From Terrabacter sp. Root85 (GTDB lineage Bacteria > Actinomycetota > Actinomycetes > Actinomycetales > Dermatophilaceae), in contig NZ_LMIW01000011.1 in NCBI RefSeq assembly GCF_001429185.1, forward strand, positions 186,001-250,000: a DNA stretch of 64,000 nucleotides. Reading direction: 5' to 3'. Shown in pieces: positions 21,808 to 33,460 of the stretch. The translations under genes were made by a program, and so were the position numbers. The number at the start of each line of letters is the position of its first letter. The stretch's first letter is position 1. Below the pieces are notes generated by a model. That model did not search any database and was not told where the DNA came from. It saw only the letters and a program-made list of their open reading frames with translations.

Positions 21808-22305
21808 CCCGCTGAGACCGGACGACCCGACGAGGGCGGCCCCGACCTGAGGGTCGGAGCCGCCCTCGTCGCATCCCGGACCGTGACCTCGCCCGGCGTC
21901 GCGCGTAGCACTTCCGGGTGTCGCCCGTCGGGATAACCCCAGACCGACGCCCCCCAATTCTCGGGGAGTGTCACCCCCCACCGTGGCGCATGCCCCTCGG
22001 TGTCGACGCTCCCACGATGGACGCAAGTCCTTGAGGGGGGATCGTGATGAGTCGATGTGACGCTCGTCCGGCAACGGGTCGACCGGCGACCGCTCGGCGC
22101 TGTGCTGGCCCGACCGGCTTGACCGTCACCGACGTCCACGGACCCCGCCGGCGCGATGCCGCCGCCACGCGCACCCCGGGCCCGGGAGCCGACACCCGGG
22201 CACCGTGCCGCCCCGACCCGTGGGATCGGTCGCGGAGCCCTGACCAGGGCCGGTCACCCCATGTCAATGCCAGTCAACGCAGCAGGAGATGGATGGAGGA
22301 CGGAG
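21808..22305 (+). other. Long 5' region of the secreted 887-aa protein
   Basis: 498 bp between guaA and the next gene. It starts with the guaA terminator (21828-21871). The rest is GC-rich and contains a possible short upstream frame, ATG 22047 to TAG 22313, preceded by GAGGGGGG. I recognise no riboswitch or known RNA motif. Confidence 0.5.
21828..21871 (+). terminator. guaA terminator hairpin
   Basis: 20-bp arms starting CGACGAGGGCGGC with one mismatch and a 4-nt TGAG loop. Among the strongest hairpins in the window. Confidence 0.85.
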
Positions 22306-24969
22306 ATGTCTAGTCAACTGGGGGGTGCGCTCTCGAAGCGCCACGTCGGCGGACCCGACCCGGGAGGCGGTGTCCGACGGCGCCGACTGCTCTCGGCCGC
22401 GGCCGCCATCGCACTCGCGGCGGGCCTGGCCCCGGTCGCGAGCAACGCCGCGCACGGCGCGGCCACCCCGCTGGTCGCTCCGGCGATCAACCCCGTGGTG
22501 GCCTCGAGCACGCAGTTCGACATCACCGGCTTCCTGCAGTCCGCGACCCTCGACTCGGCGGGCGACCCGCACTCGGGTGGCACGCTGACGCTGAACGGTC
22601 ACGCCGTCGTCGTCCCCAAGGAGACGATCGTCATCCTCCCGGCCAGCGCTCTGACCTGGCAGGAGCTCTTCACCCACGCACCGGCGCCGTACGGCCCGAC
22701 ACAGACCGGCATGGCCCTGGGCGACAGCCCGAAGCCGCTCACGACGTACGAGGTGCACGTCGTCGGCAACCGCGTCATCAACGGCAGCGGTGACCGCTAC
22801 ATCGCCGGCATGGTCGACATCTCGGAGCAGGACCTCAACAACGGGGCCGGCTACGTGAACTACCTCGACTACTCCACCGGCGAGCTGGAGGTCGGTGGCA
22901 CGCCGGGCGTCGCCGGCACCGGCACACGCGTGCGGATCAACGACCCGGCCATCGCCGGGTCGACGACGTCCGGACGCTATGGACGTGCGATGTCGCCGGA
23001 CGACCGCTTCCAGGTCGACCAGGACAACCCGACGATCCTCGCCGAGACCGGCTTCCCGATGTGCATCCCGCGCACCGCGCCGACGACGACGAACGACGAC
23101 GCCGAGTGCCCGCAGACCAACCGGCCCGTCTACACCGGGACCGACACCTCGGGCATCACCCCCCAGCCGGCGCTGCCTGCGGTGGGTGCGGCATACACGA
23201 TGTTCCGGATGGACGCGCCGTCCGACGTCGACGCCAACACGTGCGCCCGCGGCACGTGCGCCGACCCGCGCAAGCAGGCCCCGTTCGAGATCGGTGACTA
23301 CGTGACGTTCGCCGGCAACCTCGTGCAGGACGGTGGCGCCAACGGGGGCCAGTACATCTCCGCCCACACCATCGTGGCCAGCCTGGGCATCTACACCCAG
23401 CCGGGAGTCGACCCCGCCTACGTGTCCGTCGACGTGTCGATCCTCGGCACCGGTGGCCTGACGATCTTCGGTGCCGGTGAGGCAGCCGTGCGCACGAGGT
23501 TCGAGGGTATGACCACCGACGAGAGCCGGATGGTCCGTCTCTACGGCATCGACGTCAACCCGGCCACCGGCGCCACGAGCGACCGCGAGTGGGGCACGAT
23601 CATGCCCGACCCCGGCCCTCCCGGCGGTGCGGTGCGCGGTCGCTGGCGGTTCCGGCCGCCGTGCACCGCGACGGTCCCCACCCAGAAGGCCTGCACGCCA
23701 CCTCCGGCCGGGCAGTTCATCCCGCCCACGCGTGAGGTCCGCGCCGTCGTCGACGGGCTGTCCGAGTTCGTCCCGGGCACCCTGGACGCGAACCCCCGCA
23801 GCCAGGTCCCCGGCACCGCGAGTGCCAAGACCGAAGCCAACGGGATCTACTACGGCCAGTACCACGCCCCGATCGGTGAGTACATCTTCCCGGAGAACGT
23901 CCCCGGCTCCCCGGTGCCGGAGAACAACTTCAACTCGATCCCGTTCCTCGCGTACGGCGGGTACTCGTCGCTCACCGGCGTCCAGGCAGGCGTCCTGAGC
24001 CCGTGGCCGAGCAGCGTGGCGGCACCGGCCGTCGTGTGTGCCGTGCCGACGATCAACGGTGCTCCGTACTCCGTCGCCAACGGTGGGACCATCCCGCTGT
24101 CCGGCAGCGTCACCGCCGGCGCCTCCACCCCGGTCACGCTCCGGTGGACGGCCGGGACCTCGGCCGGAGGCACGAACCTGGGCGGTGCCCTCACCGGTGC
24201 CGGCACCACGACCCCGACGTTCAACGCGACGGGTCTCGCGGCCGGCACCTACCACCTGACGTTCACCGTCTCGAACGCCTGCGGCGTCGCCTCGGCCGCC
24301 ACGACGATCGTCGTCCAGGCCGCGCCGAAGCCGACCATCGCCCCCATCCAGAACCAGACGGTGACGGCGGGCAACCTCGTGACCCTGACGGCCTCGAGCA
24401 GCTCGCTGCCGGCGCCCACCTGGGTGTGGAGCCAGACGTCGGGCCCGGCCAACCCGGCCCTGAGCCAGACGCCATCGGCGGCCACGGCCACGGGCACGTC
24501 GCAGCTGAAGTTCACGCCCACCGTCGCGGGGACGTACACCTTCGGCGTCACGGCGACGAACGCCAACGGGTCCTCGCCGGCCACGTCGGTCGCGGTGACC
24601 GTCACGGCCTCGGTGCCGACGAACGTCACGCTGACCCCGGTCGAGTACCGGACGTCCAAGCAGCGGCTGATCGTGACCGCGACGTCGACGGACACGACGG
24701 TCAGCAGCATGGTGCTCCTGCCGTACCTCACGGAGTCGGGCACGATGTTCGACCCCGCCACCCTGGGTGCTGCGAACCTCACGGTCTCGCTCGTCGCGCC
24801 AGGCTCGTTCACCGTCACGGCCGTCGGGGCACCCGCCCCGGCCTGCAACCTGGGTGGCGTGTACGCCACTCCGTGCGCACAGGCGCCCCTGACGGTGAAG
24901 TCGCTCAACACCGCAGGAGCGGTGATCGGCACCAGCGCCCCGTCGAGGCTCGACAAGATCCGGCAGTAG
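22306..24969 (+). CDS. Large secreted protein with C-terminal Ig/PKD-like domains, function unknown
   Basis: 887 aa. The N-terminus has an Arg-rich stretch (VRRRRLLS) and hydrophobic core ending near ASNAAHGA, a signal peptide possibly of Tat type. Residues about 60-560 form a domain I do not recognise, with short cysteine-containing segments (PMCIPRTAP, DAECPQT, NTCARGTCADP). Residues about 590-790 look like two Ig/PKD-type beta sandwiches (GTYHLTFTVSNACGV; GTYTFGVTATNANGSSPAT). ATG 22306 was chosen because GGAGGA lies 5 nt upstream. It starts a run of three secreted-protein genes. Extracellular adhesion or matrix function is only a guess. Confidence 0.75.
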   Translation: MSSQLGGALSKRHVGGPDPGGGVRRRRLLSAAAAIALAAGLAPVASNAAHGAATPLVAPAINPVVASSTQFDITGFLQSATLDSAGDPHSGGTLTLNGHAVVVPKETIVILPASALTWQELFTHAPAPYGPTQTGMALGDSPKPLTTYEVHVVGNRVINGSGDRYIAGMVDISEQDLNNGAGYVNYLDYSTGELEVGGTPGVAGTGTRVRINDPAIAGSTTSGRYGRAMSPDDRFQVDQDNPTILAETGFPMCIPRTAPTTTNDDAECPQTNRPVYTGTDTSGITPQPALPAVGAAYTMFRMDAPSDVDANTCARGTCADPRKQAPFEIGDYVTFAGNLVQDGGANGGQYISAHTIVASLGIYTQPGVDPAYVSVDVSILGTGGLTIFGAGEAAVRTRFEGMTTDESRMVRLYGIDVNPATGATSDREWGTIMPDPGPPGGAVRGRWRFRPPCTATVPTQKACTPPPAGQFIPPTREVRAVVDGLSEFVPGTLDANPRSQVPGTASAKTEANGIYYGQYHAPIGEYIFPENVPGSPVPENNFNSIPFLAYGGYSSLTGVQAGVLSPWPSSVAAPAVVCAVPTINGAPYSVANGGTIPLSGSVTAGASTPVTLRWTAGTSAGGTNLGGALTGAGTTTPTFNATGLAAGTYHLTFTVSNACGVASAATTIVVQAAPKPTIAPIQNQTVTAGNLVTLTASSSSLPAPTWVWSQTSGPANPALSQTPSAATATGTSQLKFTPTVAGTYTFGVTATNANGSSPATSVAVTVTASVPTNVTLTPVEYRTSKQRLIVTATSTDTTVSSMVLLPYLTESGTMFDPATLGAANLTVSLVAPGSFTVTAVGAPAPACNLGGVYATPCAQAPLTVKSLNTAGAVIGTSAPSRLDKIRQ

Positions 24970-26427: not shown

Positions 26428-29109
26428 ATGTGCGGAATCGCCGGACACCTGGGTGTCCACGCCGACGAGGCCCAGCTCGACCGACTGCTCGACCGACTGC
26501 TCGCGACGCATCCGGGCCCGGGCGATGCGGCGACCGCACGGGACGGTGACGCCGGCGTCGGGGTGCGGGAAGCGCGCCCGGGCGTGACCACCGAGGACGA
26601 CGGCGGCCACGGCGTCGCGAGGCTCGCGGTGGCCCGCGGTGGACGGTTCACCCTCGCCCTCGACGGCGAGCTCTACAACCGCGCCGAGCTGCGCGCCGAC
26701 CTCGAGACCCTCGGCCACGACTTCGGCGTGGGCAGTGACGCGGAGGTCGTCCTCGCAGCTTTCACCGAGTGGGGCACCGACGGCCTCGACCGACTCGACG
26801 GCGCCTTCGCGCTCGCGGTCTGGGACCGTGACACCCGGCGGATGATGCTGGCGCGAGACCACTTCGGCGTGCGTCCGCTCTACCTCGCCCGGGCCGGAGA
26901 CGGGTGGCTCGTCGCGAGCGAGATCCGCGGCATCCTCGAGAGCGGCCTGCACGAGCGTCGCCCGGACGACCGCACCATCTACCGCTACCTGCGCTTCCGC
27001 GTCCACGACGACGGCCGGTCCACGTTCTTCGCCGGGATCGAGCGCGTCGGCGCGGGCGAGGTCGTCACCCTGGGCGCCGACGTGCCGGGAGGGCTGGAGC
27101 GTCGTCCCTACACGCGGCTCCGCGAGGAGCTGGCCGCGCTCGGGAAGGCACCCCGGGCATACTCCCCGGCGGTCGCCGCCGAGTTCCGCACCCTGCTGAC
27201 GGCCGCCGTACGGCGCCGCGCGACGTCGTCGGGGCGGGTCGGCACGGCCCTCTCCGGTGGCCTCGACTCGGCCGCCATCGCGGCGCTGCTCGACGTCGTC
27301 GAGCACGAGTCCGGTCGCTCGGCCGCCGATGCCGTGCAGGACACGTGGTCCGCCATCTATCCCGGCTCGCGCAACGACGAGGTCGAGCACGTCGACGCCG
27401 TCGTGGCCGCGCTGGACGGGCGGGTGCAGGAGCACCGCATCGAGCCGACGCCGACCGAGTTCAAGCAGGACCTCCGCGACCTCGTGCGCACCCAGGAGGA
27501 GCCGCTCGTCTCGACCGGTGCCTACACGCAGTACCGCGTGCTGCGCGAGGCGTCCGAGAGCGACAGCGTCGTCCTCGACGGTCACGGCGGCGACGAGACC
27601 CTGGCCGGCTTCGGTCCGCACCACCTGATCCACCTGCGCGAGCTGCGTCACCGCAGCGCGGTCAGCGCCGCCTCGGAGCTCGGGCGCTCGCTCGACGTGC
27701 TCTACCGCCGGGGCCGGCCGCTCATCGGCGACCGGCTGCACGGCCGCAAGGACGTGCCGGTGGCCTCGTTGCTCGACGCGGACTTCGCGCGAGCCCACGC
27801 CACCGAGGGCTACGACGTCGAGAAGGCCGACCTGCGGGCCCGTCTCGTCGACGACGTCTTCACCGGTTCGCTGCCGGCCCGACTGCGCTACACCGACAAG
27901 AACGCCCGAGCCTTCGGGGTCGCCGTGCGGATGCCGTTCGTCGACCGCGACCTCGTGCGGTTCGTCTTCGGCCTCGCCGACGACGCCCTCGTCAAGGACG
28001 GCGTCGGCAAGCGCGTGCTCCGCGACGCGATGCGGGGACTGCTGCCGGACTCCGTCGTCGACCGTCGCGACAAGGTCGGCGCGACGACGCCGCAGGGCGA
28101 GTGGTTCATGCGCCTCAAGAACCACGTCTACGGCGAGTTCCTGTCCGAGTCCTTCGCCAACCGGCCCTATTTCGACCAGACGGCGGTGCTGCACGCCTTC
28201 GAGGGCTGGATCAAGGGCACGAACTCGATCGACTCGATGACCGTCTGGCGCATGCTCAACCTCGAGCTCTGGCTCCAGGAGTTCTTCGACGAGCGCGAGC
28301 CGGAGGACCCCGGTCAGGCCGAGCACGTCAAGACCGACTACGAGCCGAACGCCCGCAAGCAGCTCGACCTCGTCACGGGGGACGGCACCGCGGTCCGCCG
28401 CTACCCGTTGCGCACCGAGCTCTACGCCCGCGAGGACGACCTCGAGGCCAAGACGCTCGGCTACGTCGAGCGCTTCTTCTCCGGCCTGCCCGACGCCGGC
28501 CCCGAGCACGCGTCCGCCACGAGCGGCCGGTGGTACTTCTTCATCTCCGAGAAGATCGTCGCCATCACCCAGGGTCGCTCGTACTTCATCTGGGACATCA
28601 AGGTCGGCCGCCCGGCGCGGTTGCTCAGCCGCTACGTCACGCGCACCCCGGCCGGCATCGGCCTCGGCTCGCCCTTCACCATGCAGCTCGCCATCGAGGA
28701 GGCCGGCCTGCCGCGGGTGCTCTTCGCCTCCGCGGGCGGTGCCGTCGGCAAGGTGCTCGGCAAGCGGGGCCTGTTCTACGACCTCGTCGGCGGTGACATC
28801 CGTGCCATCGACGGTCCGACCGAGTACTCCGTCTACCCGGCCAACGTCTCGGCCAAGCTCGGTCCCAAGGACCCCGACGACGTGGCCGCACACCTGTCGG
28901 CGGCCATCCGCGCGCGGGTGCCGGAGGCCTACCGCGACACGTTCGGCGGCACGGTCGTCATGGACGCCAACGACATCGGCCGCAACGTCCTCGGCAAGGA
29001 CGCGCCGGGAGCCAAGGAGCGCTACGAGCTGATGTTCGCCGACAACCCGCTGGGGCAGGGATCCGAGCAGACGCCGATGGCCATCGTCTTCGAGGCGCCC
29101 TCTGCCTGA
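26428..29109 (+). CDS. Asparagine synthetase-like amidotransferase fused to an F420-0:gamma-glutamyl ligase-like (CofE) domain
   Basis: 893 aa. The start MCGIAGHLG exposes Cys2, the nucleophile of class II glutamine amidotransferases (domain about 1-215). The synthetase domain has the ATP PP-loop ALSGGLDSAAIA (about 274) and DGHGGDETLAGF (about 384), as in AsnB. AsnB proteins usually end near 600-650 aa. Here about 240 further residues follow: ISEKIVAITQGR (about 706), GIGLGSPFTMQLAI (about 744), VMDANDIGRNVLG (about 844) and DNPLGQGSEQTPMAIV (about 871). These match the CofE/F420-0:gamma-glutamyl ligase family, enzymes that form amide bonds to glutamate using a nucleotide. Family facts predict ammonia from glutamine, AMP-activated amidation and a second ligase activity. 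Acceptor unknown. ATG 26428 is fixed by Cys2. No neighbour explains it. Confidence 0.88.
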   Translation: MCGIAGHLGVHADEAQLDRLLDRLLATHPGPGDAATARDGDAGVGVREARPGVTTEDDGGHGVARLAVARGGRFTLALDGELYNRAELRADLETLGHDFGVGSDAEVVLAAFTEWGTDGLDRLDGAFALAVWDRDTRRMMLARDHFGVRPLYLARAGDGWLVASEIRGILESGLHERRPDDRTIYRYLRFRVHDDGRSTFFAGIERVGAGEVVTLGADVPGGLERRPYTRLREELAALGKAPRAYSPAVAAEFRTLLTAAVRRRATSSGRVGTALSGGLDSAAIAALLDVVEHESGRSAADAVQDTWSAIYPGSRNDEVEHVDAVVAALDGRVQEHRIEPTPTEFKQDLRDLVRTQEEPLVSTGAYTQYRVLREASESDSVVLDGHGGDETLAGFGPHHLIHLRELRHRSAVSAASELGRSLDVLYRRGRPLIGDRLHGRKDVPVASLLDADFARAHATEGYDVEKADLRARLVDDVFTGSLPARLRYTDKNARAFGVAVRMPFVDRDLVRFVFGLADDALVKDGVGKRVLRDAMRGLLPDSVVDRRDKVGATTPQGEWFMRLKNHVYGEFLSESFANRPYFDQTAVLHAFEGWIKGTNSIDSMTVWRMLNLELWLQEFFDEREPEDPGQAEHVKTDYEPNARKQLDLVTGDGTAVRRYPLRTELYAREDDLEAKTLGYVERFFSGLPDAGPEHASATSGRWYFFISEKIVAITQGRSYFIWDIKVGRPARLLSRYVTRTPAGIGLGSPFTMQLAIEEAGLPRVLFASAGGAVGKVLGKRGLFYDLVGGDIRAIDGPTEYSVYPANVSAKLGPKDPDDVAAHLSAAIRARVPEAYRDTFGGTVVMDANDIGRNVLGKDAPGAKERYELMFADNPLGQGSEQTPMAIVFEAPSA

Positions 29110-30962: not shown

Positions 30963-33290
30963 TCAGCGGGGTGCACGGTGCCGACCGCCCCGTCGGGCGG
31001 GTGCGGTGACGAGAGGGCCTGCTGGGACGAGCGCGAAGGCGCCCTCCTCCTCCTGGCTGTTGTGGAGGCGGCAGACGGCGTAGAGGCCGTAGAGCAGCCG
31101 CCTCAGCTCGGTGACGTCCTCGGGGGTGACGGAGCCGGGCTCGATCCCGTCGAGCAGGCGGCGCAGCCGCGACACCTGGTGCTCGATCTCCGCGTGCGTC
31201 CGCCGCATGGTCGTCGTGGCCGAGCCGCCGAGAGCCCGGGCCACGAGGGGCATGAGCTCTGCCTCGTCGTCCCGCTCGTGGGGGAGCAGCTCGGCCTCGA
31301 GCCGGTCGAGGAGCGCGCGCACGGGAGCGAGGTCGCAGGCGTGGGTGTGCAGGCCGTCGGCGACGGCCCGGACCTGCTCGACGGCGGCGATGGCGACGTC
31401 GTGACCCTCGCGCAGGCGACGCGCCGTGGCGACGTCCTCGGCGGACATGGGGACGCTGTGCAGCGGGGTCGGGAGCAGGGCCCGCAGGGCGATGCCGATC
31501 GCGAGGACGTCGATGCCCTCCTGGAGCACCGCGCCCGCCGCCGGCGGCAGCAGGCCGGCCGCTGCGGCGACCATGGCCACGAGCGAGAGACCCATCCCGA
31601 CCACGACGGCCTCCAATGCGACCCGGCGGGACCGGCGCGCGATGAGGATGGCGTCGGCGACGGCGTCGACCCGGTCGACCGTCAGCACGACGTCAGCAGC
31701 CTCCGACGACGCCGTCGCGCCACGGGCGGCGAGGGCGACCCCGACCCCGGCGGCCGCGAGGGCGGGCGCGTCGTTGACGCCGTCCCCGACCATGATGGTG
31801 CGCGCGCTGGCCGACTCGTCGCGGATGGCCGCGAGCTTGTCGGCGGGGTCGCGGTCGGCGAGGACGGCGTCGACGCCGACGATCCGGCCGACCGTCTCGG
31901 CGATGTCGGCACGGTCGCCGGTGAGCAGGACGGTCCGGCGGATCCCGACCTCGCGCAGGGCCGAGACCATCCTGGGCGCATCCGCCCGCACCGGGTCCTC
32001 GAGCAGGAACGCGCCGGCCGGGGCGCCGTCGACGGCGACGAAGACCGTGAGGCACCCGTCGAGCGCGGCCCGGCGGCGCACCTGACGCAGCCACGCCGGA
32101 TCGTCACCGACGATCCACCGGGCCTTGCCGAGACGGACCACCGTCGTGCCGACCCGACCCTCGAGGCCGTAGCCGTGCACCTCGTGGACGGCCGTCGGGA
32201 GCACGAGGTCGAGGCCGCGGGTCCGAGCCGCCCCGACGAGGGCGCTCGCGAGCGGGTGGGGCGAAACCTGGTCGAGCGAGGCCGCGAGGCGCAGCACCTC
32301 CGCGGCGGGAGGGGCGCCCGGAGCGACGACGACGGCCGTGAGCCCGGGCCGACCGTGGGTGAGGGTGCCGGTCTTGTCGAAGAGCACGACCTCACCGGCC
32401 GCGAGGGCCTCCAGGGCCGCGCCGCCCTTGACGACGACGCCGATCCGCGAGGCCCGGGACAGGCCCGACATGATCGCCACCGGAGCGGCGAGCAGCAACG
32501 GGCACGGGGTTGCCACGACGAGCACCGCCACGGCCCGCAGCGGGGACCCGGCCAGGGCCCAGGCGGCGCCGGCCAGCGCGAGCGTCAGCGGGACGAAGAG
32601 CACCGCGAAACGGTCGGCCGTCCGGACGAAGGGGGCCGAGGTCGCCTGCGCCTGCTCGACGAGTCGCACGACGTTCGCGTAGGTCGACTCGGAGGCCGAC
32701 GAGGTGGCCACGACGTCGACCGGAGGGCCGGCGTTGACGACCCCGCTGCGCACGTCGTCCCCGTTCGGGCGCTCGACGGGCATCGGCTCACCCGTGAGCG
32801 CCGACTCGTCGAACGTGCCGGCCGCGAGCAGCCGGCCGTCGACCGGCACGACCTCGCCCGTCCCGACAACGAGCACGTCACTTGGTGAAACCTCCTCCAC
32901 CGGAATGCGGTCCACGCGGGTACCCGTGCGCCGCCGGGCCGTCCGCGGCGTGCGCTCGACGAGCAGGCGCAGCTCCCGGTCGGCCCGCGCCGCGGCCCGG
33001 GCCTCGAGCAGGCGACCGCTCGCGAGCATCAGGGTGACCATGGCGCCCGCGAAGTCCTCACCGACCCAGAGCGCACCCGCCAGGGCCAGGACGGCGATGA
33101 CGTCGACCGTGGCGCGGCGCTCGGCGACCGACCGCACCGTCCAGAGGACCGAGAGCGCGAGTCCGAGCACGGTGGTCGCCACCCAGAGGGCGCGGGACAG
33201 CTCGTCCCTCCCCGACAGGGCGGCGAGCGCGCCGCGGCCAGCAAGGCGGCCGACGCGACGAAGAAGACCGCCGGGGAGCGGCCGCGCCAC
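30963..33290 (-). CDS. P1B-type heavy-metal ATPase with C-terminal hemerythrin-like domain
   Basis: 775 aa. The ATPase has the actuator motif LTGEPMPVE, membrane metal-site motif VATPCPLLLAAP (about 258), phosphorylation site FDKTGTLTHG (about 305), the HP of SPHPLASAL and the hinge MVGDGVNDAPAL (about 498). No N-terminal CxxC metal-binding domain. After the last helix pair, residues about 615-765 look like a hemerythrin four-helix bundle: LLPHERDDEAELMP, RRTHAEIEHQ and RLHNSQEEEGAF give the expected His/Glu iron ligands. Such tails are known for P1B-5-type pumps linked to nickel or iron, so efflux of Ni2+/Fe2+ is a reasonable inference. GTG 33290 has GGAGG 9 nt upstream; the upstream open frame is repeat DNA. 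Confidence 0.85.
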   Translation of the reverse strand: MARPLPGGLLRRVGRLAGRGALAALSGRDELSRALWVATTVLGLALSVLWTVRSVAERRATVDVIAVLALAGALWVGEDFAGAMVTLMLASGRLLEARAAARADRELRLLVERTPRTARRRTGTRVDRIPVEEVSPSDVLVVGTGEVVPVDGRLLAAGTFDESALTGEPMPVERPNGDDVRSGVVNAGPPVDVVATSSASESTYANVVRLVEQAQATSAPFVRTADRFAVLFVPLTLALAGAAWALAGSPLRAVAVLVVATPCPLLLAAPVAIMSGLSRASRIGVVVKGGAALEALAAGEVVLFDKTGTLTHGRPGLTAVVVAPGAPPAAEVLRLAASLDQVSPHPLASALVGAARTRGLDLVLPTAVHEVHGYGLEGRVGTTVVRLGKARWIVGDDPAWLRQVRRRAALDGCLTVFVAVDGAPAGAFLLEDPVRADAPRMVSALREVGIRRTVLLTGDRADIAETVGRIVGVDAVLADRDPADKLAAIRDESASARTIMVGDGVNDAPALAAAGVGVALAARGATASSEAADVVLTVDRVDAVADAILIARRSRRVALEAVVVGMGLSLVAMVAAAAGLLPPAAGAVLQEGIDVLAIGIALRALLPTPLHSVPMSAEDVATARRLREGHDVAIAAVEQVRAVADGLHTHACDLAPVRALLDRLEAELLPHERDDEAELMPLVARALGGSATTTMRRTHAEIEHQVSRLRRLLDGIEPGSVTPEDVTELRRLLYGLYAVCRLHNSQEEEGAFALVPAGPLVTAPARRGGRHRAPR

Positions 33291-33364
33291 CAGGTCACAC
33301 CTCCATGATCCGCCGCCCGCAACCGCACAGACCGCGTACGGGACAGGCGTCACACCGTCGACAG

Positions 33365-33460
33365 GCCACGTTCTGCGGGTGCGCTCGCGTCGAGGGGCCA
33401 CGTTCTGCGGGTGCGCCCGCGTCGAGGGGCCACGTTCTGCGGGTGCGGCCGCGTCGAGAG
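33365..33460. repeat. 32-bp tandem repeat, three units, upstream of the metal ATPase
   Basis: Three head-to-tail units starting GCCACGTTCTGCGGGTGCG at 33365, 33397 and 33429, plus a 6-bp start of a fourth at 33461. Differences are confined to one or two positions per unit. It lies in the 182-bp gap between the PIG-L gene and the ATPase gene. The unit contains a 15-mer that recurs at 61586. Confidence 0.95.

Follow-up and report, generated by a model that had tools for sequence, protein, structure and literature searches.

What does a protein do in which an asparagine-synthetase-like (AsnB) half is joined in one chain to a CofE-like domain, and which of the two halves matters for its function? 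The question is raised by a gene of Terrabacter sp. Root85 that lies in a 64,000 nucleotide stretch of DNA (the whole of which is called the window here), and that a preliminary description took to be a fusion of AsnB with a gamma-glutamyl ligase domain of the CofE type. The host genome (G000) is 4.87 Mb, the gene is on its contig C11, and the nearest named relatives of the host are Terrabacter and Terracoccus. The answer to which we give an even chance is that this is a two-module protein whose C-terminal CofE-fold domain (the "tail") is the most constrained part, that the tail is a ligase, and that the AsnB half has turned into a scaffold or regulator in some lineages.

Layout of the fusion gene and its surroundings

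The gene is one uninterrupted frame of 893 amino acids plus a stop codon, with the N-terminus MCGI, and has the following features.

26428..29109, + strand: whole fusion gene, 893 amino acids (frame, Pfam and TIGR01536)
26431..26997, + strand: class II glutaminase domain (GATase_7/GATase_6), residues 2–190, the end set by us (Pfam, alignment)
26431-26433, + strand: codon of the Cys nucleophile, kept (alignment of fused proteins)
26662-26664, + strand: codon of Asp79, in the presumed oxyanion motif NGE, here DGE (alignment)
27181..28278, + strand: Asn_synthase (PP-loop) domain, residues 252–617 (Pfam)
27253-27270, + strand: SGGLDS, kept (alignment)
27577-27597, + strand: GEGSDE-type loop, here DGHGGDE, with His386 (alignment)
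28279..28335, + strand: linker, residues 618–636, model confidence below 50 at residues 625–632 (full-length AF2 model)
28336..29106, + strand: CofE-fold domain, residues 637–893, 91/91 conserved columns kept (fold and alignment)
28546..28566, + strand: SEKIVAI motif, opposite SSKIASK of the host FbiB (alignment)
28645..28683, + strand: TPAGIGLGSPFTM, a stretch without FbiB counterpart (alignment)
28804..28818, + strand: AIDGP, with Asp795 opposite the Asp of AGVD in FbiB (invariant in 64/64)
28864..28878, + strand: PKDPD, common to CofE and FbiB as PxDPD (alignment)
28957..28983, + strand: VMDANDIGR, opposite VLSDTAGR of FbiB (alignment)
29041..29058, + strand: DNPLGQ, the C-terminal signature, with the domain end shortly after (alignment)

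The GATase_7 (107 bits) and Asn_synthase (187 bits) Pfam domains are found far above their cut-offs, and the full-length AF2 model (pLDDT 86.1, pTM 0.74) has two folded modules and a low-confidence linker. Terrabacter-type orthologues in loci L024, L026 and L028 are 94, 91 and 86% identical to the protein.

The single frame is thus as first described, but the amidotransferase and PP-loop motifs, all of which were said to be there, are not all canonical. The alignment has the Cys, SDAE, SGGLDS and the lysine of KRVLRD kept, but the usual NGExYN reads DGELYN, the GEGSDE of E. coli AsnB corresponds to DGHGGDE, and the position of E. coli Glu348, occupied by Gln in most intact relatives, is His. 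We take NGE to be the oxyanion motif and the Glu348-type residue to be important for the carboxylate site. The window copy retains 37/61 conserved columns in GATase and 101/135 in Asn_synthase (columns defined below), and dN/dS values in three Terrabacter-type pairs are 0.19–0.21 for GATase, 0.11–0.15 for Asn_synthase and 0.06–0.10 for the tail. By these sequence measures the AsnB half in this clade is altered yet constrained, with no free decay, and the window copy looks like an intermediate in which the Cys and PP-loop are kept and the glutaminase and carboxylate-site motifs are altered.

The neighbourhood is uninformative as a guide to the substrate, with no consistent pathway. The scanned flanks of the window gene hold guaA and the gene for a PKD-domain protein upstream and an AMP-binding enzyme gene downstream on the other strand, and, as the preliminary description had it, no F420 biosynthesis gene is present among the ten flanking genes scanned. 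Homologous flanks are found only in loci of Intrasporangiaceae and in the loosely placed actinobacterial MAGs L035 and L039, apart from one 35% match in L078; the neighbour table for fused loci is partial, the gene picker having missed the fusion gene in many of them. Two nearby frames are noted for their own sake. That at 22156-24969 (+ strand) encodes a protein of 937 amino acids whose C-terminal third holds two PKD-type domains and which is matched only in L024 among 63 loci. The 812 amino acid frame at 30963-33401 (- strand) joins a P-type ATPase (E1-E2_ATPase and HAD) to a hemerythrin HHE domain on its C-terminal side, a pairing that is unusual to us.

A second AsnB–CofE-like fusion, with canonical AsnB motifs, lies on contig C8 of the host at ~685.4–688.3 kb (L003, L093). 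Its tail carries a frameshift, for which a sequencing error may be to blame, as it is seen in a single assembly, and the related genomes G003 and G008 (L094, L095) have whole copies. A PAP2-type gene (L093–L095) or a polysaccharide deacetylase gene (L098) is found just downstream of this paralogue, and in L094, L095 and L098 the downstream gene overlaps the paralogue end by 4 bases. These neighbours, PAP2-type in three of six loci (one by Pfam, two by similarity) and deacetylase in one of six, are suggestive only as a pointer for the paralogue.

The C-terminal domain and where it occurs

The four tail motifs named at the outset (SEKIVAI, GLGSPFTM, DANDIGRNVLG and DNPLGQG) are all present. The match to the CofE family PF01996 that the preliminary description had staked its case on failed: the tail alone (the last ~240 residues) scores 14.4 bits, below the cut-off of 25. 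Despite this score, its relatives and its predicted fold place the tail with CofE. A match to PF01996 at E ≤ 10 is obtained for all 25 tails compared, the best of them at 2.1e-14, and the stand-alone clostridial relatives L074 (49.1 bits) and L083 (43.0 bits) are over the cut-off. In Foldseek, the AF2 model built for the tail (pLDDT 79.8) has matches at E ≤ 1e-3 to CofE structures only, with a structural alignment that stops at CofE residue 222, the tail ending earlier than CofE. An hhalign comparison of the tail profile with the host FbiB gave no significant match.

The AxxD and xxGR anchors of CofE align with the tail, SSKIASKA of FbiB becomes SEKIVAIT with the loss of one Lys, and SDTAGR becomes ANDIGR, so that the Asp-Thr of SDT stands opposite Asn-Asp. 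Because CofE residues are replaced and the domain ends early, the chemistry of the tail may differ or be lost. In CofE, GTP and two metal ions activate a carboxylate to which glutamate is coupled (PMC10861534, excerpt), and from the modelled fold and the shared anchors it is most likely that the tail performs a related carboxylate-amine ligation.

Among 63 loci in genome contigs, the tail stands behind a long frame in 52 (L051 and L068, whose AsnB half is cut by the contig start, are counted here), is a stand-alone gene in ten (one from an uncultured bacterium, the other nine in MAG records of Clostridia type), and in one (L081) is on a sequence too short to show which form it has. Since 52 of the 63 carry it behind a long open frame, the AsnB–CofE fusion is real and no assembly artefact. 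The matches listed from the open-licence literature, as far as their titles and abstract openings go, include no description of such a fusion. With the host included in each count, the tail is present in 28/98 relatives (E ≤ 0.001), 37/297 genomes of the order (E ≤ 1e-30) and 24/396 genomes of the phylum (E ≤ 1e-10). The 37 genomes of the order have 27 frames of at least 809 amino acids, nine short frames (all in one family) and one of 496. The possibility that the tail is a standard extension of long actinobacterial AsnB proteins thus holds in part: it is regular within one clade (27/297 genomes) but not a feature of AsnB generally. The order to which the genome of L083 belongs has the tail in 66/197 genomes (E ≤ 1e-20), in frames mostly of 231–308 amino acids, with some longer, up to 436.

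The search for further fusions and unfused neighbours that had been proposed yielded both fused orthologues and a split pair, the latter in the actinobacterial locus L158, where a 666 amino acid AsnB gene is directly followed by a stand-alone CofE-like gene. By BLAST with the window AsnB, no AsnB is adjacent in the other stand-alone tail loci examined. In L169 (5684-7093) and L170 (5162-6535) the CofE-like domain follows TPR repeats in one protein. We note that a stand-alone tail gene overlaps the gene for a principal-type sigma factor by 4 bases (L159:4863-6916, L160:6426-8380), and that L159 also has, further downstream, a gene for alanine racemase. The clostridial tails were examined in 50 loci, in 42 of which the tail gene was found (the ORF picker missed eight), and glmS is directly upstream in four of the 42 (L072, L073, L083 and L085). 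A link to the cell wall through glmS was not borne out, as 40 further stretches (tail gene shown in 32) added no case. Other genes beside clostridial tails, recognised by eye, we take to be alaS and HIT.

AsnB halves that have decayed in related proteins

Motifs were scored in an alignment of the fused proteins, and the PP-loop was counted as lost when it did not fit SGG[LIV]D[SA]. Eight of the 58 fused proteins scored for both motifs have lost the Cys nucleophile as well as the PP-loop motif: L044 (Janibacter), L046 and L047 (Microlunatus), L050 (Helcobacillus), L052 (Dermabacter), and L056, L063 and L067 (Brachybacterium). The slightest PP-loop change among these is in L067 (LGGLDT). L079 has lost only the Cys and L034 only the PP-loop motif, and the Humibacillus PP-loop reads SGGIDA. 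Overall, the Cys is kept in 49 and lost in nine of 58 rows, the PP-loop kept in 50 and lost in nine of 59, and NGE kept in 39 and lost in 20 of 59. On a tree built from the tail only, the fewest changes that account for these patterns are six, six and seven, respectively, and five for the double loss; losses are far likelier than regains, although the counts do not fix the direction of change. That tree groups L056 with L063 (100/96), L046 with L047 (100/100) and L050 with L052 (100/95), and places L067 apart within Brachybacterium. The tree was made without the stand-alone rows L077, L081 and L164–L171 and, in its final form, without the long branch L163; the motif counts on it leave out L051 and L068 (cut by the contig start) and PAR_L093 (frameshifted tail), and that for the Cys also L038.

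The decay reaches well beyond the two motifs and stops at the tail, which is nearly invariant. Columns count as conserved here if they reach 95% conservation or more across 34 intact rows, a set picked by its AsnB motifs; 12 window-type or partly altered rows are in neither group, and L038, L084 and L172–L174 are not in the column counts. The eight double-loss proteins keep 16–41 of 61 such columns in GATase and 39–83 of 135 in Asn_synthase, but 89–91 of 91 in the tail, or 26–67% in the AsnB domains against 98–100% in the tail, which makes the tail the constrained part of these eight. Likewise, Janibacter L044 and Knoellia L043 are 91% identical in the tail and 61% in Asn_synthase, and L056 and L053 81% and 32%, against 86% and 90% for the intact Brachybacterium control L055 and L053.

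The dN/dS values (NG86) are 0.14 in the tail and 0.34 in the degenerate Asn_synthase domain for L046/L047, and 0.05 and 0.23 for L050/L052, where dS is 1.4–1.8 and near saturation. The values of 0.34 and 0.23 indicate that the dead half continues to be maintained as a protein. Asn_synthase is strongly constrained in all four intact pairs, and in two of the four more tightly than the tail (L064/L065, Asn_synthase 0.018 and tail 0.267; PAR_L094/L095, 0.107 and 0.270).

At E ≤ 1e-10, Asn_synthase has no further match in seven of the eight double-loss genomes: the degenerate fusion is the only match in G106, G110, G111 and G112, and G107, G108 and G109 have no match at all. G102, the remaining one, has an unfused 667 amino acid AsnB and a further partial AsnB. 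The degenerate half can therefore not simply be regarded as a redundant copy beside an intact AsnB, and an "asparagine synthase" label would be misleading, as PF00733 finds in these seven genomes either this gene only or nothing. With both motifs lost and the tail intact, amidation by the N-terminal half cannot be needed for the role of the tail in those eight proteins.

Readings of the fusion and known systems

The tail is a new CofE-fold subfamily, and the AsnB half has been lost as an enzyme in several relatives. In the reading given an even chance above, the tail would be a ligase that depends on metal and nucleotide and couples glutamate or another amino acid to an acceptor carboxylate, the acceptor being probably other than F420 and the tail probably no substitute for FolC. 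Originally, the N-terminal half would have been a functional glutamine amidotransferase that partnered the tail, perhaps encoded next to it at first and fused to it later, and in some lineages may now be a scaffold or regulator only; a point to be set against this is that most fused rows (49/58) keep the Cys. We give a little less than an even chance to the broader statement that a CofE-fold subfamily of Actinomycetota and Clostridia, with neither an F420 nor a FolC role, makes an amide conjugate, and that one actinobacterial clade fused to it an AsnB which, though still attached, later turned into a pseudoenzyme on some five separate branches; if true, a fused enzyme would have been made into a scaffold in parallel. 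The results point to an enzyme, probably one that forms amides, in many genomes of Gram-positive bacteria, some of them without CofD. The fused family also offers naturally occurring stages between an active-looking enzyme and a pseudoenzyme; these show which of the halves matters and can guide the search for the substrate.

Since some CofE residues are replaced, the tail might instead be a sensor, that is, a pseudo-ligase that uses the CofE fold to sense a nucleotide or metabolite and regulates or anchors its partners (AsnB, TPR proteins). The partial match to the CofE motifs, the early domain end and the variety of fusion partners (AsnB and TPR repeats) would suit this, but the very high conservation, which includes polar motif residues, the common occurrence of the tail as a stand-alone gene and its retention where the fused partner is dead make it a doubtful, if possible, alternative to a ligase.

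Rather unlikely in our view is a bifunctional enzyme, in which the two halves share one substrate that is glutamylated by the tail and amidated by the AsnB half. Such sequential action, suggested in the preliminary description, fits the fusion itself, the adjoining pair in L158, the 34 rows with both halves intact and the constraint on both halves in the four intact pairs. It does not stand as the function of the family, given the eight proteins with both AsnB motifs lost and the tail unchanged, seven of them in genomes without another Asn_synthase match, and the tail genes that, L158 excepted, have no adjoining AsnB in the loci examined; in the window copy and intact relatives it may still apply.

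A folate role, with the tail a dihydrofolate or folylpolyglutamate synthase of the FolC2 type, has a precedent in the COG1478 proteins of Chlamydia and L. reuteri (PMC1971073, PMC5061717, excerpts), and clostridial relatives of the tail weakly match TIGR04132 (20–22 bits, cut-off 350). However, FolC is above cut-off in 17/17 tail-bearing genomes tested, which argues against the tail as a FolC substitute, and no folate gene is found among the subset of neighbour proteins scanned with Pfam. As L. reuteri carries both FolC and FolC2 (PMC5061717, excerpt), FolC in a genome leaves room for a folate role, which we consider quite improbable.

That the protein is an ordinary asparagine synthetase whose C-terminal extension is inert would agree with TIGR01536 (NCBIfam), which it passes by about two bits (269.4, cut-off 267.1), but this is very improbable in view of the residue at the Glu348 position, of the occurrence of the extension as a separate gene, and of its conservation where the AsnB half is dead. 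Hardly credible at all is a tail that is an F420-0:gamma-glutamyl ligase or has F420 side activity, since, the CofE fold and the FbiB and CofD matches on host contig C8 notwithstanding, CofD is above cut-off in only 6/17 tail-bearing genomes tested (host included; 11/17 are without), PF01996 scores in the same search are 116.7 bits for the host FbiB and 10.7 for the window tail, and the alignment ends before Arg234, which in CofE touches the F420 ring (PMC10861534, excerpt). The FbiB and CofD of the host mean that the tail is not its missing CofE, and the CofD count together with this separate FbiB rules out F420 as the general role of the tail.

The AsnB-type amidotransferases (TIGR01536; mDAP-amidating AsnB/LtsA) have in common with the fusion the GATase/Asn_synthase order, Cys1 and the PP-loop, but the fusion adds a CofE-fold domain and has Gln or His at the E. 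coli Glu348 position, and some of its members lose the catalytic motifs. The AsnB label alone gives no substrate, as the Listeria AsnB, annotated as asparagine synthase, is an mDAP amidotransferase; an extra loop and a clade placement are described for the LtsA-type mDAP-amidating AsnB (PMC8554201, excerpt). The FolC2 proteins of Chlamydia and Lactobacillus are likewise a non-F420 use of the CofE family (PMC1971073, PMC5061717, excerpts), but chlamydial FolC2 replaces FolC and sits among folate genes (PMC1971073, excerpt), whereas all 17 tail-bearing genomes tested have FolC, and the partner of the tail is AsnB or variable. From CofE and the FbiB N-terminal domain (PF01996, COG1478; PDB 2PHN, 7ULD) the window tail differs in its score under the Pfam cut-off, in its TPxGIGLG stretch and DNPLGQ...TP ending, and in its presence in genomes without CofD above cut-off. 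FbiB is likewise a CofE domain joined to another enzyme, a nitroreductase (PMC8498797, excerpt), but the partner, order and subfamily all differ from those of the window fusion.
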